DNA of 64,000 bases. It comes from Pseudomonas extremaustralis (GTDB taxonomy: Bacteria; Pseudomonadota; Gammaproteobacteria; Pseudomonadales; Pseudomonadaceae). The DNA lies in NCBI RefSeq assembly GCF_900102035.1, contig NZ_LT629689.1:3146001-3210000 (forward strand), given 5' to 3'. This document shows, one piece after another, positions 48,601-54,556 of this stretch. The translations under genes were made by a program, and so were the position numbers. Numbering within the stretch: position 1 is the first letter of the stretch; every line of letters begins with the position of its first letter. The notes under the pieces were generated by a model that had not been told where the DNA came from, did not search any database, and was given only the letters and a program-made list of their open reading frames with translations.

Positions 48601-49535
48601 ATGTTAAACAGCAACTTGCTCAGAAAACTCGATATGCAGGACTTGATGGTGTTTATCGCCGTCTACGACCAGAGCAGCGTGACCGAGGTGTCAGAAACGC
48701 TGTTCGTCAGCCAGTCCACCGTGAGCTACAGCCTGAAGAAACTGCGCACCAGTTTCGAGGATGAGCTGTTTATCAACACGCGGGCCGGTATGCGTCCTAC
48801 GTACAAGGCCAGCACCATGTACGGCCATGTTCAGAAGATTCTGGAAAGCATCAACCTGTGCCACGCCGGTGGCCAGGTTTTTGACCCGACGCAAAAGGCC
48901 GTGACCTTCAATGTCTGCGCGCCGGAATACTTCGAACAGTTGATCCTGCCGCGCCTGTTGAAGAACTTCGACCGCGCCGACCTGCCGGTGATCGTCAATG
49001 TGCAGAAGCTGGAAACCGACATCCCCGCCGATGACCTGCGCGAAGGCCGCCTCGACTTGGTGATCTGCTTCGGTCCGAACTTCCACCGCGCCCATAAAGA
49101 CTTCAAGACCCAGATGCTGCTGGAGGACGACCTGGTGTGCGTCTTCGATAAACGCTCGGCCCCCGGGAGCCGGCGTTCAGCCTGCAAGCCTTCGCCGAAC
49201 GGCGCCATGTGTTTCCCACGCCGTGGACGTCCGACACCAACATGATCGACGGCTGGCTCGCGCGCCAGGCCCACAAGCGCCAAGTGGTCGCCCGGGCCAA
49301 TAGCTACAGCGCGGCCTTGAAGATGATCACCGGCACCGACTTCATCATCACCCTGCCGCGTCGCGTGCAAAAACTGCTGGCGCCGGCAGCGCTGTTCGGC
49401 TGCTGCGAGGCGCCCAACGGGTTGCCGGGGTTCACTCTGGATATGCAGTGGAATGAAACCAGTGAACAGGACAGCGCCAATATCTGGTTTCGCGAGCAGG
49501 TGGTGAAGGTGTGTGCGGATCAGGGTCTGTTGTAA
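48601..49535 (+). pseudogene. LysR-family regulator interrupted by a frameshift
   Basis: The first frame (48601-49245) gives a normal LysR N-terminus: 'DMQDLMVFIAVYDQSSVTEV', recognition helix 'SQSTVSYSLKKL', and the start of the effector domain up to 'VCVFDKRSAP'. It then runs into nonsense and stops. The natural continuation ('EPAFSLQAFAERRHVFPTP' through '..VVKVCADQGLL') is in another frame and ends at 49535. One base missing from the C-run at 49160-49164 explains the break; restoring it would give a protein of about 311 residues. It is either a true mutation or a sequencing error. Confidence 0.85.
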
Positions 49536-49538
49536 GCG

Positions 49539-49901
49539 TCAGCCAATGACGACTTTGCTGTAGGAATCACGGTCCATGTCTACCACCTGGACACTCAGTT
49601 GAACCTGCAGGTCCGCCGGCCAGTCCCCCAGGTCCTGCAACGCGGCCAACAGGCTGTCCGACAACTGCTTCTTGACCTGCGCGGAGCGCCCACTGAGCAG
49701 CGACAACTTCACCGCGATAAAGCCGCGCGGGCTCAGAGAAGTGCCCACCTGAAAACGCTCGAGCTTGATTGCCCGGCTTTTGATATCGAGCTCGGAGCCG
49801 AACTGCCCGGACACCATCAGCACGTTGTTGAGCCGCAACAGGATTTTCTCGACGGCCAGGCCAGTCAGGTTGGCGGTGTATTCCAGGTGCAGGTGCGGCA
49901 T
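49539..49901 (-). CDS. 5-carboxymethyl-2-hydroxymuconate Delta-isomerase family protein
   Basis: 120 residues from the ATG at 49901 with GGAG six bases upstream. The N-terminal 'MPHLHLEYTANL' gives the catalytic Pro after Met removal, as in HpaF/HpcD of the tautomerase superfamily. 'LSLLSGRSAQVKKQLSDSLL' is the conserved helix. HpaF works in homoprotocatechuate breakdown, but no other hpa genes are here, so the substrate may differ. It is 55 bases downstream of a LysR gene on the same strand. Confidence 0.83.
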   Translation of the reverse strand: MPHLHLEYTANLTGLAVEKILLRLNNVLMVSGQFGSELDIKSRAIKLERFQVGTSLSPRGFIAVKLSLLSGRSAQVKKQLSDSLLAALQDLGDWPADLQVQLSVQVVDMDRDSYSKVVIG

Positions 49902-49956
49902 GGAGGGCTCCGAGTCATTCGTAGGAAGGTTCGTAGATATAACACGGTTAAAGGCA

Positions 49957-50880
49957 TCAGGCCTTTTTCGCCAGGCCGCGGTCACTCATGAAGGCTTCCA
50001 GCCGCGAACGCACCCAGCGCTCAGCCGGATCGGTGTCCACATGGCTGAGCCAGACCATGGACAAATCCAGGGTCGGCGTCTCGAACGGAAACGGCTCGCA
50101 GAACAGATTGCCCGACTGCGCCATGGCCTCGGCGGCGTAGTCCGGCACGCTGGCGATCAAATCCGTGCCCGCCAGCAGGGCCGGCAACGCGCTGTATTGC
50201 GGCACCGATAGCACCACGTGGCGCTTGCGACCGACTTCCGCCAGCCATTCATCGGCGAACCCGGACACGTTGGCGGTGTGGGACACCAGCACATGGGGGC
50301 GTGCGCAAAACTCATCGAGGGTCAACGGCCGGTCCGAAGCATCGGCGCGCACCAGGAGCGGGCGGATATGGCGCAGCAGCTTGCGCTTGGCATTCGCCGG
50401 CAGGCCGCGGGTCTGGGTGATGCCGACGGTGATATCGCCGGAAGCCAGCAAGTCGGGAATGCGCCAGTAATCCACATGCTGCACCACGAACACCACCATC
50501 GGCGCTTCCTGGCGCAAGGCGCGCAGCAGCGGCGGCAGCAGGCCGAACTCGACGTCATCGGACAGGCCGATGCGAAAAGTCATGGTGCTGACGGAGGGGT
50601 CGAAATCATGGGTCAGGCTCAAGGCCGACGACAGCGAATCCAGCGCCGGCGACAAATGCTGGATGATCTCCTCGGCTCGCGCAGTGGGCTCCATGCGGTG
50701 GCCGACGCGAATGAACAGAGGGTCGTTGAACAGGGTACGCAGTCGGTTGAGCGCCGAACTGATGGTCGGTTGGCCGAGAAACAGTTTCTCCGCTACCCGC
50801 GTCACATTGCGCTCCAGCATCAGCGCCTCGAACACCACCATCAGATTGATGTCGGCCTTGCGTAACTCATTGCGATTCAT
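49957..50880 (-). CDS. LysR-family regulator, NodD/LeuO-like
   Basis: 307 residues from the ATG at 50880, with GGGGGAGG five bases upstream. 'LRKADINLMVVFEALMLERNVTRVAEKLFL' and 'GQPTISSALNRLRTLFNDPLF' are of the NodD/LeuO/SyrM branch. The effector domain has 'IGLSDDVEFGLLPPLL'. It lies upstream of the CHMI-type isomerase gene, so it may control itself and that gene. Confidence 0.88.
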   Translation of the reverse strand: MNRNELRKADINLMVVFEALMLERNVTRVAEKLFLGQPTISSALNRLRTLFNDPLFIRVGHRMEPTARAEEIIQHLSPALDSLSSALSLTHDFDPSVSTMTFRIGLSDDVEFGLLPPLLRALRQEAPMVVFVVQHVDYWRIPDLLASGDITVGITQTRGLPANAKRKLLRHIRPLLVRADASDRPLTLDEFCARPHVLVSHTANVSGFADEWLAEVGRKRHVVLSVPQYSALPALLAGTDLIASVPDYAAEAMAQSGNLFCEPFPFETPTLDLSMVWLSHVDTDPAERWVRSRLEAFMSDRGLAKKA

Positions 50881-51367: not shown

Positions 51368-51540
51368 AGCCACCTCCCATCCGTAAGTGTTGGTTACACC
51401 TGAGAGCATAGAACAGGACACGTCATGTGGACGTGCCCTGTCGATTAATAACCTGAACGCATCAATAAATCTGAATTATTCACTTATCATTTCTAAATGT
51501 GTCAGCCACTATCTAAAGTCTTAAGCGAAACAAGCATTTT

Positions 51541-51566: not shown

Positions 51567-52874
51567 ATGACTAACCCTTCCCGGCCCGACTCTGCCCGTT
51601 CGAAAGTGGGTGCGGTTTTCCGCGTTACTTCGGGCAACTTCCTTGAGCAGTTCGACTTCTTCCTGTTCGGTTTCTACGCCACCTATATCGCTGCCGCGTT
51701 CTTCCCCGCCGCTAATGAGTTTGCGTCATTAATGATGACCTTCGCCGTGTTCGGCGCAGGCTTCCTGATGCGGCCATTGGGGGCGGTGATTCTGGGCGCC
51801 TACATCGATGACGTCGGTCGACGCAAAGGGTTGATCGTGACCCTGTCGATCATGGCCAGCGGCACGCTGCTGATCGTGCTTGTGCCGGGTTATCACACCA
51901 TTGGCCTGTGGGCACCGTTGCTGGTGTTGCTGGGCCGCCTGCTGCAAGGCTTCTCGGCCGGCGCCGAGCTGGGCGGGGTGTCGGTATACCTGTCGGAAAT
52001 GGCCACCCCCGGCCGCAAGGGTTTCTACACCAGCTGGCAATCGGGTAGCCAACAGATCTCCATCGTGGTCGCCGCCGCACTGGGTTATGGCCTGAACGTG
52101 TGGATGGAACCGGCGGTGGTTGCCGATTGGGGCTGGCGTATTCCGTTCGCCATCGGTTGCGTCATCATTCCGTTTATCTTTCTGCTGCGGCGCAACCTGC
52201 AGGAAACCGAAGAGTTCGCCAACCGCACACACCGCCCGACCATGCGTGAAGTGCTGGCAACCCTGGCGAAGAACTGGACCGTGGTGATCGGCGGCATGCT
52301 GATGGTGGCCATGACCACCACGGCGTTCTACCTGATCACCGTGTATGCACCGACCTTCGGCAAGACCGTGCTGCAACTGAGCACCTCCGATGCGCTGCTG
52401 GTGACCTTGCTGGTGGCCGTGTCGAACTTTGTCTGGCTGCCGATCGGCGGCAGCCTGAGCGACCGCTTCGGTCGCAAACGGGTGCTGGTCGCCATGACCG
52501 TGCTGACCATTCTCACGGCGTACCCAGCGCTGTCCTACGTGGTAAATGCCCCCAGCTTTGCCCGTATGCTGGAAACCCTGCTGTGGTTCTCCTTCCTCTA
52601 CGGTATGTACAACGGCGCCATGATCCCGGCCCTCACCGAAATCATGCCGATGGAAGTGCGCGTGGCAGGTTTCTCCCTGGCCTACAGCCTGGCGACCGCG
52701 ATCTTCGGTGGATTTACTCCGGCGATCTCCACTTGGTTCATTCACATCACCGACGACAAGGCCTCGCCGGCCTACTGGATGATGTTCGCCGCGACGTGCG
52801 CCTTGTGCTCGACCCTGGCGCTCTATCACCGGGTCAACACCCGTGGTCAGGTGATGCAGGGCGCGTCGTCATGA
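51567..52874 (+). CDS. MFS carrier, metabolite:H+ symporter (MHS) family, tricarboxylate type
   Basis: 435 residues with 12 membrane helices. The N-terminal '[23 protein letters not shown]', '[25 protein letters not shown]' in outline and '[19 protein letters not shown]' are those of citrate, tricarballylate or related H+ symporters of the MHS family. Its stop overlaps the start of the ModA-like gene by four bases, so the two are co-translated. The partner argues for trans-aconitate or a related tricarboxylate as the substrate. GGAG lies ten bases upstream of the ATG. Confidence 0.87.
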
Positions 52875-53629
52875 AAGCACTGTTGAACACCCTGACGGCC
52901 CTGACCCTCGGCGCTCTAGCGCTGACGGCCCAGGCCGAAGCGCTCAAGGTGATGACCTCCGGCGGTTTCACCGCTGCCTATAAGTTGCTGGGCCCGCAAT
53001 ACGCCCGGCAAAGCGGAGACACCCTCGAGACGCTTCTCGGTCCGTCCATGGGCAAGGCGCCGGAAGCGATTCCCAACCGCCTGGCCCGTGGCGAACAGGC
53101 CGATGTGGTGATCATGGTCGGTTACGCCCTGGACGAACTGATTAAGCAGGGCAAGGTCGACCCCGCTTCCCGGGTGGAACTGGCCGACTCGCGCATCGGC
53201 CTGGTGGTCAGGCAAGGCGCGCCAAAACCCGCGATCGGAACCGATGCCGAACTCAAGGCCGTGCTGAGCCAGGCCAAGTCGATCGCGTATTCGGACAGCG
53301 CCAGCGGCGTGTATGTCGAAAAAGAGTTGTTCAAGAAACTCGGCATGCCGGCCAAAGGCAGCATGATCGAACGCCTGCCGGTGGCCGAACAGGTTGCCAA
53401 GGGCGACTACGAGGTAGGTTTGCAGCAGGTCGCGGAGTTGTTGCCGGTGCCGGGTGTGACGTATGTCGGCAAGCTCCCGGAAGATGTGCAATCAGTGACG
53501 CGCTTTGCCGCGGGTATTCCGGTCAATGCCGAACACCCGACCCAGGCCAGGGCGTTGCTGCACTACCTGGCGTCGCCCGAAGCCCAGCCGGTGGTGCAAT
53601 CCACCGGCCTGGACTCGGTGTCACGCTGA
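52871..53629 (+). CDS. Periplasmic ModA-like protein, probable aconitate isomerase
   Basis: 252 residues. A signal peptide ('[20 protein letters not shown]') leads to a two-lobed solute-binding fold of the ModA/SBP_11 type: '[18 protein letters not shown]', '[20 protein letters not shown]', '[17 protein letters not shown]' and '[13 protein letters not shown]'. No ABC permease or ATPase is nearby; instead it is coupled to an MHS carrier. Aconitate isomerase of Pseudomonas sp. WU-0701 is, to my knowledge, a periplasmic protein of this same ModA-related family, which fits this context. I infer that it converts trans- to cis-aconitate. A molybdate or other binding protein is the alternative. Confidence 0.7.
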
Positions 53630-54556
53630 CCGAAACGGCGTCTCCCGCACCAACCGCTCCAACTCCAGCGCCGCCGGCGGCAATGTCCGCCCGCGGCGCT
53701 TGATCAAGCCCACGTTGCGCATCACCTGCGGTTCTACCAACGGCACACTCACCAGAATCGGGTGATCGTCCGCCGGCATCGCAATCGACGGCACCATCGC
53801 CACGCCCAGCCCCGCCTCCACCAGCCCGATCATCGTGGTCACGTGATGGGTCTCGCAGATACTCGGCTTTTTCACCCGCACTCCGCGCAGGGCCTGGTCC
53901 AGCAGGAAGCGGTTGCCGGAGGTCTTGTCCACCGAGATGTAGTCATGCTCATAGGCTTCGGCCCAGGGCACGCTGACGCGCCCGGCCAACGGGTGGTCAC
54001 GCCGACAAGCCAGCACATAGCGCTCCTGCAACAGCAGCTCGAACTCCACCTCATCGGCCAGGCTGCCGCTGAAACTCACGCCGAAATCCGCCTCGCCACT
54101 CTCCACCGCGTTGCACACCTCGCCGGCGCTGGCGTCCAGCACCCGAATGCGAATCTTCGGATACAGCTTGTGGAATTCGGAAATCACGTGGGGCATGAAG
54201 TAGTACGCAGTGGAGGGCACGCAGGCGATGGTCACATTGCCCATGCGCGTGGAGGCGACGTTGCTGATACCCATCAGGGCGATATCAAGGTCGTCGAGAA
54301 TACGCTCGACCTGCGGAAGAAAAGCACGGCCGACCATGGTCAGGCTGACGCGCCGCGTGGTGCGCTCGAAGAGTTTGACGTCGAGGGCGGACTCCAGTTT
54401 TTCGATGCGACGACTAAGGGCCGGTTGCGAGATGCGGATGGCTTCGGCCGCGCCGCTGAAACTGCCCTTGTCTACCACCGCGCGGAAGGCTTGAAGGTCG
54501 TTGAGGTCAAAGTTGATGATCACGGAGGTGGCCAGTGTGGTCGAGGTGGAGAGCAT
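53621..54556 (-). CDS. LysR-family regulator beside the MHS carrier/ModA-like operon
   Basis: About 311 residues from an ATG at 54556; a GTG at 54523 would give 300 residues and is equally possible, as neither has a good ribosome site. 'FDLNDLQAFRAVVDKGSFSGAAEAI' and 'SQPALSRRIEKLESAL' form the DNA-binding domain. The effector domain has 'ACVPSTAYYFMPHVISEFH' and 'GLVEAGLGVAMVPSIAMP'. Its 3' end overlaps that of the ModA-like gene by nine bases on the opposite strand. It is the likely regulator of that operon. Confidence 0.85.
   Translation of the reverse strand: MLSTSTTLATSVIINFDLNDLQAFRAVVDKGSFSGAAEAIRISQPALSRRIEKLESALDVKLFERTTRRVSLTMVGRAFLPQVERILDDLDIALMGISNVASTRMGNVTIACVPSTAYYFMPHVISEFHKLYPKIRIRVLDASAGEVCNAVESGEADFGVSFSGSLADEVEFELLLQERYVLACRRDHPLAGRVSVPWAEAYEHDYISVDKTSGNRFLLDQALRGVRVKKPSICETHHVTTMIGLVEAGLGVAMVPSIAMPADDHPILVSVPLVEPQVMRNVGLIKRRGRTLPPAALELERLVRETPFRSA

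Follow-up and report, generated by a model that had tools for sequence, protein, structure and literature searches.

Pseudomonas sp. WU-0701, of the same genus as the strain analyzed here, reportedly possesses a periplasmic aconitate isomerase (Ais) of approximately 262 amino acids that is related to molybdate-binding proteins. WU-0701 grows on trans-aconitate through aconitate isomerase (PMC8871043), and the kcat/Km of its enzyme is given as 800 per s per mM, compared with 0.65 for TbrA (PMC13188880); the word "periplasm" appears in neither paper. Two gene clusters offer further comparisons. The tarRAB locus of Bacillus velezensis FZB42 unites a LysR regulator, a major facilitator superfamily (MFS) importer and an aconitate isomerase (PMC11495376), and Salmonella tcuRABC combines a regulatory gene and a carrier with cis-aconitate as end product (PMC2606687, PMC10790481). 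TcuC, the carrier type of the latter, has been described as importing tricarballylate by substrate:proton symport (PMC10468695). Here we describe a locus in a 64,000-nucleotide stretch of Pseudomonas extremaustralis DNA (the window; C1:3146001-3210000 of a 6.67 Mb one-contig genome), where a TcuC-type carrier gene is followed by a gene for a 252-amino-acid protein with a ModA-like fold. It is likely that this pair forms a trans-aconitate utilization module, made up of a periplasmic aconitate isomerase and its importer. The candidate locus would share its three components with tarRAB, and its carrier subfamily, a regulatory gene and cis-aconitate as end product with tcuRABC. It differs from tcuRABC in the added ModA-fold protein and in the lack of a TcuB match in the genome, and from tarRAB in the orientation of the LysR gene, which is convergent here and divergent there (PMC11495376). 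The window locus probably represents a known type of enzyme, arranged differently from tarRAB.

The carrier gene (51567..52874, + strand) encodes 435 amino acids of the MHS family and scores 751.3 bits against the TcuC model NF011656, for which the cut-off is 445; no other gene in the genome exceeds that cut-off. It is the proposed importer of cis-aconitate and probably of other tricarboxylates. TcuC identity was checked with NCBIfam for the window and two related loci (L097 and L100), and by tblastn in the phylum-wide draw described below. The letters themselves show that the carrier stop codon and the start codon of the downstream gene overlap as ATGA (52871..52874, + strand), as the sequence-only reading had stated, which suggests translational coupling of the two genes. 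The downstream gene (52871..53629, + strand) encodes the proposed isomerase, and a predicted signal peptide of 22 amino acids (52871..52936, + strand), cut before EALK, was assigned by eye and from the similar N-termini of relatives rather than with a prediction program. Pfam analysis of 14 proteins between 45.6 and 60.3 kb, the remaining open reading frames there being overlapping or short, found no ABC permease or ATPase domain and hence no modB or modC beside the gene, again as the sequence-only reading had it.

That reading had also described a signal-peptide protein of the ModA fold; the fold held up, as did the signal-peptide pattern as judged by eye. The predicted model of the 252-amino-acid protein is ModA-like, with a type 2 binding-protein fold, and the protein matches Pfam SBP_bac_11 (129 bits against a threshold of 25). 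When the single sequence was compared with solved structures, nothing matched at E 0.001 and there were six weak hits at E 0.28 and worse; the A2 profile search ranked ModA chains first. The protein resembles ModA in fold, size and signal-peptide pattern, but it is not ModA. It scores 22.3 bits against the ModA model TIGR01256, far under the cut-off of 62.5, it has no ABC partners, and the only true modA of the genome lies elsewhere and scores 261 bits. A manually inspected hidden Markov model alignment with E. coli ModA (1amf) places the molybdate ligands of the latter, taken to be S12, S39, A125, V152 and Y170, on G32, K62, S145, R168 and Q186, so that they are not kept. A role as ModA or as another molybdate protein was rejected on these grounds. 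No match to the CitB/TcuB model TIGR02484 was found in the genome, TcuA was not searched, and the same model gave one sub-cut-off match in 14 control genomes, so the power of this search is weakly tested. Because no TcuB was found, tricarballylate is probably not what the carrier serves to import, and we regard its use as unlikely.

The pairing of carrier and ModA-fold gene is deeply conserved. Among the best 80 of 172 matches to the 252-amino-acid protein, all from Pseudomonas, the carrier lies directly upstream in 78 and a full convergent LysR gene is found in 76. With a limit of E 1e-20, relatives are present in 110 of 199 genomes drawn from the genus. The phylum draw gave matches in 47 of 398 genomes, at 74 places, and 60 neighborhoods (L150-L187 among the loci cited here) were read after removal of the window, three near copies and the ten weakest. 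An 85-row tree places the window in a 21-row clade (support 100/99) that holds Pseudomonas, Burkholderia, Enterobacteria and Acinetobacter venetianus, and 18 of the 21 lie beside TcuC, the other three being L067, L153 and L155. ModA, L199 and others form long branches in this tree whose placing is unsure, and two rows (L151 and L187) carry the label "other" wrongly through start choice. Beyond Pseudomonas, the ModA-fold gene stands beside an MFS gene in Cronobacter, Salmonella Milwaukee and A. venetianus; in Burkholderia pyrrocinia, where dctA follows instead of LysR; in Klebsiella aerogenes, where the carrier is annotated as three pieces; and in K. pneumoniae, on a 5.4 Mb record labeled as a plasmid. 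The association of carrier and ModA-fold gene is not due to chance.

Neighboring genes at more distant loci bear on the substrate. In Acinetobacter baumannii (L100), outside the window's clade, a 40% identical relative lies between a carrier and a LysR gene and is followed by tcuA and tcuB, the product of which is cis-aconitate (PMC2606687); tcu genes of Acinetobacter baylyi are noted in the same paper. Two further relatives (L176 and L178) adjoin a TTT receptor, and at a third (L181) the TTT receptor lies at a distance of 3 kb and TcuA/TcuB at 4-5 kb. All three loci carry a LysR gene 45-48% identical to that of the window, and a TTT system seems to take the place of the carrier there. The neighbors at these four loci point to C6 tricarboxylates as substrates.

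We infer the export, activity, substrate, direction and regulation of the pair as follows. The ModA-fold protein would be exported to the periplasm through its signal peptide, and the cleft of its fold would shift a single proton within the propene chain (an allylic 1,3-shift) and so turn trans- into cis-aconitate. The TcuC-type carrier would then import cis-aconitate with protons, pulling an equilibrium that favors the trans form, and housekeeping aconitase would process the imported product. The convergent LysR protein probably senses an aconitate and would act at an ATTRAT-N11-ATCAAT box. Since trans-aconitate inhibits aconitase (PMC11495376), isomerization before import may avoid poisoning of the cell. 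Probably, then, plant-made trans-aconitate is made usable outside the inner membrane and imported afterwards. Such use of trans-aconitate may be overlooked because relatives of the protein are annotated as substrate-binding or molybdate proteins. No PrpF-superfamily isomerase is encoded at the locus, and the sole PrpF (PF04303) gene of the genome, at C1:69602, lies 3' of acnD in the 2-methylcitrate arrangement; because of this placement, we found no dedicated tar-type isomerase. The genome's PrpF could nevertheless serve as a backup, because Shewanella PrpF has aconitate isomerase activity (PMC5690661). A Pantoea that uses trans-aconitate and a Serratia isolate are described as lacking TarA homologs (PMC11495376), and relatives of the 252-amino-acid protein on Pantoea plasmids would fit such TarA-less use.

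The surprising part of the analysis is a sister branch of the family rather than the window locus itself. Conversion of trans- to cis-aconitate and the 4-oxalomesaconate step of aromatic acid degradation have in common that a proton is shifted on an unsaturated tricarboxylate. Relatives with 29-41% identity, an SSMATR-type start and no signal peptide by eye were found in gallate operons of Burkholderia multivorans (L110), Caballeronia (L115 and L117) and Comamonadaceae (L116), and in protocatechuate 4,5-cleavage operons of Acidovorax (L113), Diaphorobacter (L114) and Arthrobacter keyseri (L105). LigK and gallate dioxygenase were confirmed by NCBIfam; LigJ, the 4-oxalomesaconate hydratase, is an Amidohydro_2 protein matched by no NCBIfam model, and its name rests on operon place. 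The rule used for signal peptides gave false positives (e.g., L151 and L160), and the branches were therefore sorted by motif. SSMAT[R/K] was present in 11 members of the 60 phylum-draw neighborhoods, ten of which also have FQQxxEL, and ten other members adjoin TcuC. LigJ lay within 5 kb of nine of the 11 SSMAT[R/K] members compared with none of the other 49, and for the remaining two (L152 and L170) LigJ lies at another place on the contig that carries them. At L170 the SSMATK-type gene, away from LigJ, adjoins trpD2-like and sirohaem-synthesis-like genes (names assigned by eye). PrpF occurs in five of the 11 genomes with the sister branch, in each case beside acnD.

A reciprocal survey started from LigJ. 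LigJ was found in 92 of 150 genomes of one family, at 96 places, and 86 neighborhoods (L215-L294 among them) were read after ten, mostly weak, short or second copies, were set aside. An SSMATR-type gene stood there in 60, PrpF in six, both in none and neither in 20. All 60 SSMATR-type genes are on the strand of LigJ, 50 of them within 170 bases, and the motif is visible in 53; the other seven lie at contig ends or frame breaks or are variants, and L294, with 46% identity, is the weakest of them. Nineteen of the 20 "neither" cases have a relative at another place in the genome, 57-71% identical to the Acidovorax copy and in one case split over two contigs, and one genome (G943) has none. Four of the six PrpF cases lack a relative and two have weak ones only (best 45% and 32%). 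In a genome-wide follow-up of 80 of the 92 LigJ genomes, 26 of which were searched for relatives elsewhere, the sister branch was found in 73, beside LigJ in 54 and elsewhere in 19; PrpF lay beside LigJ in six, and one genome had neither. PF04303 genes occur anywhere in 36 of the 80 and adjoin LigJ in the same six only.

Because the sister branch adjoins LigJ and PrpF is never alongside, we predict that it is a non-PrpF 4-oxalomesaconate isomerase, and it probably is one that has been annotated as a substrate-binding protein. The 4-oxalomesaconate tautomerases GalD and LigU, which are PrpF-superfamily members, perform the type of proton shift that is proposed for the sister branch; they differ from it in fold. 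No printed assignment of this function was found within the literature searched. In Pseudarthrobacter, pcaT, an "ABC-type molybdate transport system" gene, is listed with the pathway genes, which form one transcription unit, and the tautomerase of other clusters is ligU/fldA (PMC8431788). Judged from its name and its position in the operon rather than from its sequence, pcaT appears to be a sister-branch gene, and if so it would be the missing isomerase of its operon. The position of the sister branch beside the hydratase further suggests that the window protein, too, isomerizes unsaturated tricarboxylates. On balance, we favor the view that a solute-binding fold has given rise to tricarboxylate isomerases with two main branches, one of aconitate isomerases that are exported and paired with TcuC or TTT systems, the other of cytoplasmic 4-oxalomesaconate isomerases that replace GalD/LigU in gallate and protocatechuate 4,5-cleavage. 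Both reactions also occur within the PrpF superfamily, so this would be a case of convergence in which two unrelated folds arrived at one pair of substrates. Should the sister branch be confirmed, a binding-protein fold would gain an enzyme family, and a step in the degradation of lignin- and tannin-derived acids would gain an enzyme in 73 of 80 LigJ genomes of one family.

Thirteen residues are conserved in both branches and absent from the genome's ModA: S30, S59, R70, E75, D78, S107, S141, S145, Q185, Q186, E189, T210 and F212 (window numbering; kept in all or all but one of 13 exported members and of ten sister-branch rows). The invariant arginine R70, the serines and the Q-Q-x-x-E motif would, if set in a cleft that closes on a tri-anion, make a plausible active site. 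A further branch of approximately 227 amino acids in one family (f205; L189-L196) begins LSTLGLMGAM or LSTLALKGA and mostly lacks an N-terminal signal by the rule used.

The fold and a relative beside an ABC permease and ATPase (L102, described below) would also suit a protein that captures tricarboxylates in the periplasm and hands them to the carrier without chemistry, as in TRAP and TTT systems. MFS carriers are not known to work with binding proteins, however, and copies without an adjoining carrier (L067 and L068), copies whose neighboring TTT receptor would make such a protein redundant (L176 and L178) and a sister branch with no signal peptide visible by eye all argue against such a helper, which we consider unlikely. 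Rather improbable is an isomerase of a different unsaturated tricarboxylate, such as methylaconitate or an oxalomesaconate-like acid, with TcuC importing the product. That the sister branch adjoins LigJ, and that a Neorhizobium relative (L101) lies 3-4 kb from galB and ligK, would suit this proposal, but LigJ was within 5 kb of none of the ten TcuC loci of the phylum draw, and the A. baumannii copy accompanies tcuA and tcuB with cis-aconitate as product (PMC2606687). The Neorhizobium relative itself (L101:1484-6702, on a plasmid) is 44% identical, has a signal-peptide-like start and adjoins a divergent MFS gene, and its substrate may be an oxalomesaconate-like acid. Although the equilibrium favors the trans form (PMC8871043) and WU-0701 and other Pseudomonas are reported to produce trans-aconitate (PMC13188880), a module that makes and keeps trans-aconitate outside the cell for defense or chelation is very improbable, given that TcuC has been described as an uptake symporter for tricarballylate (PMC10468695) and that the A. 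baumannii relative is located with catabolic tcu genes.

Several observations weigh against the aconitate isomerase and importer proposal. The 252-amino-acid protein has no direct link to any characterized aconitate isomerase, and TarA of tarRAB is of the PrpF superfamily and acts after import in the published model (PMC11495376), whereas the window candidate combines a ModA fold with a signal-peptide pattern. A tricarboxylate carrier would also suit citrate or tricarballylate, TcuA not having been searched. Two Pseudomonas loci (L067 and L068) keep the ModA-fold gene with neither carrier nor LysR adjoining, and two members inside the TcuC clade (L153 and L155) have no TcuC within 5 kb. On a Pseudomonas plasmid, a 41% identical relative that keeps Q-Q-x-x-E (L102:5905-8381) precedes an ABC permease and ATPase and then a methyltransferase; it could be a genuine binding protein or show that the family has a third function, and some family members may simply bind a ligand. 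Bradyrhizobial and other branches had no informative neighbors among those sought. Tyr170 of E. coli ModA is also absent from the genome's own ModA, which has alanine, so this ligand position is a weak argument against molybdate binding. The operator-like box described below is absent from 12 of 15 loci outside the Pseudomonas set and present in L097, L157 and L165. For the sister branch, the LigJ genomes all come from one family, the closest named copies being from Acidovorax and Diaphorobacter, and neighborhood evidence cannot prove chemistry. The parts of the sequence-only proposal that found support are the carrier subfamily, a ModA fold without ModA identity, the signal-peptide pattern, the lack of an ABC partner, the lack of a TcuB match in the genome, the deep conservation of the pair and the presence of relatives close to TTT receptors or to genes of tricarballylate use.

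The proposed regulator of the pair is a LysR-type protein of 300 amino acids (53621..54523, - strand) with HTH_1 and LysR_substrate domains. Its gene converges on the pair, with a stop at 53621 and a 9-base overlap with the end of the 252-amino-acid gene. The sequence-only reading was right about the LysR gene and had it start at ATG 54556, which is possible; GTG 54523 is likelier because, of the 77 relatives in which LysR was matched, 58 have a match that begins at residue 56-63 of the open reading frame (earlier in 18; one is a fragment). The nearest NCBIfam model is PsrA, at 400 bits and under its cut-off of 540. A candidate LysR-type operator, ATTAAT-N11-ATCAAT (51444..51466, no strand assigned), lies 123 bases 5' of the carrier ATG. 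ATTGAT-N11-ATCAAT is found in 60 of 79 carrier upstream regions (the window and 78 Pseudomonas loci, which are related sequences), and permitting ATTAAT, as in the window copy, and spacings of 10-12 raises this to 65, the window included; shuffled rates were 0 and 0.0005, respectively. The operator guessed first, AATAAATCTGAATTATT, occurred in one of the 79 regions, the window's own, and was dropped.

The carrier-isomerase-LysR module is also present on plasmids of Enterobacteria (L098, L112 and other Cronobacter and Salmonella records). A match to the 252-amino-acid protein was found in 118 plasmid records, 29 of them from Cronobacter and others from Pantoea; 22 of the 118 were opened, two of which lack a gene table. 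At the DNA level, the Salmonella copy had no matching E. coli record.

Ten further proteins make up the neighborhood between 45.6 and 60.3 kb: an aldehyde dehydrogenase, a second MFS carrier, a LysR gene in two halves, a 5-carboxymethyl-2-hydroxymuconate isomerase (CHMI)-type protein, a cold-shock protein, a chemotaxis receptor, SAICAR synthetase, a metallo-hydrolase and a lipoprotein. The LysR-type gene at 48601-49535 is broken over two overlapping frames, with the helix-turn-helix domain and the start of the substrate domain in 48601-49245 and the remainder in 49209-49535, reflecting either a frameshifted gene or a sequence error. The CHMI domain protein (49539-49985, - strand; 56 bits compared with a threshold of 26.5) adjoins a BsrA-like LysR gene.

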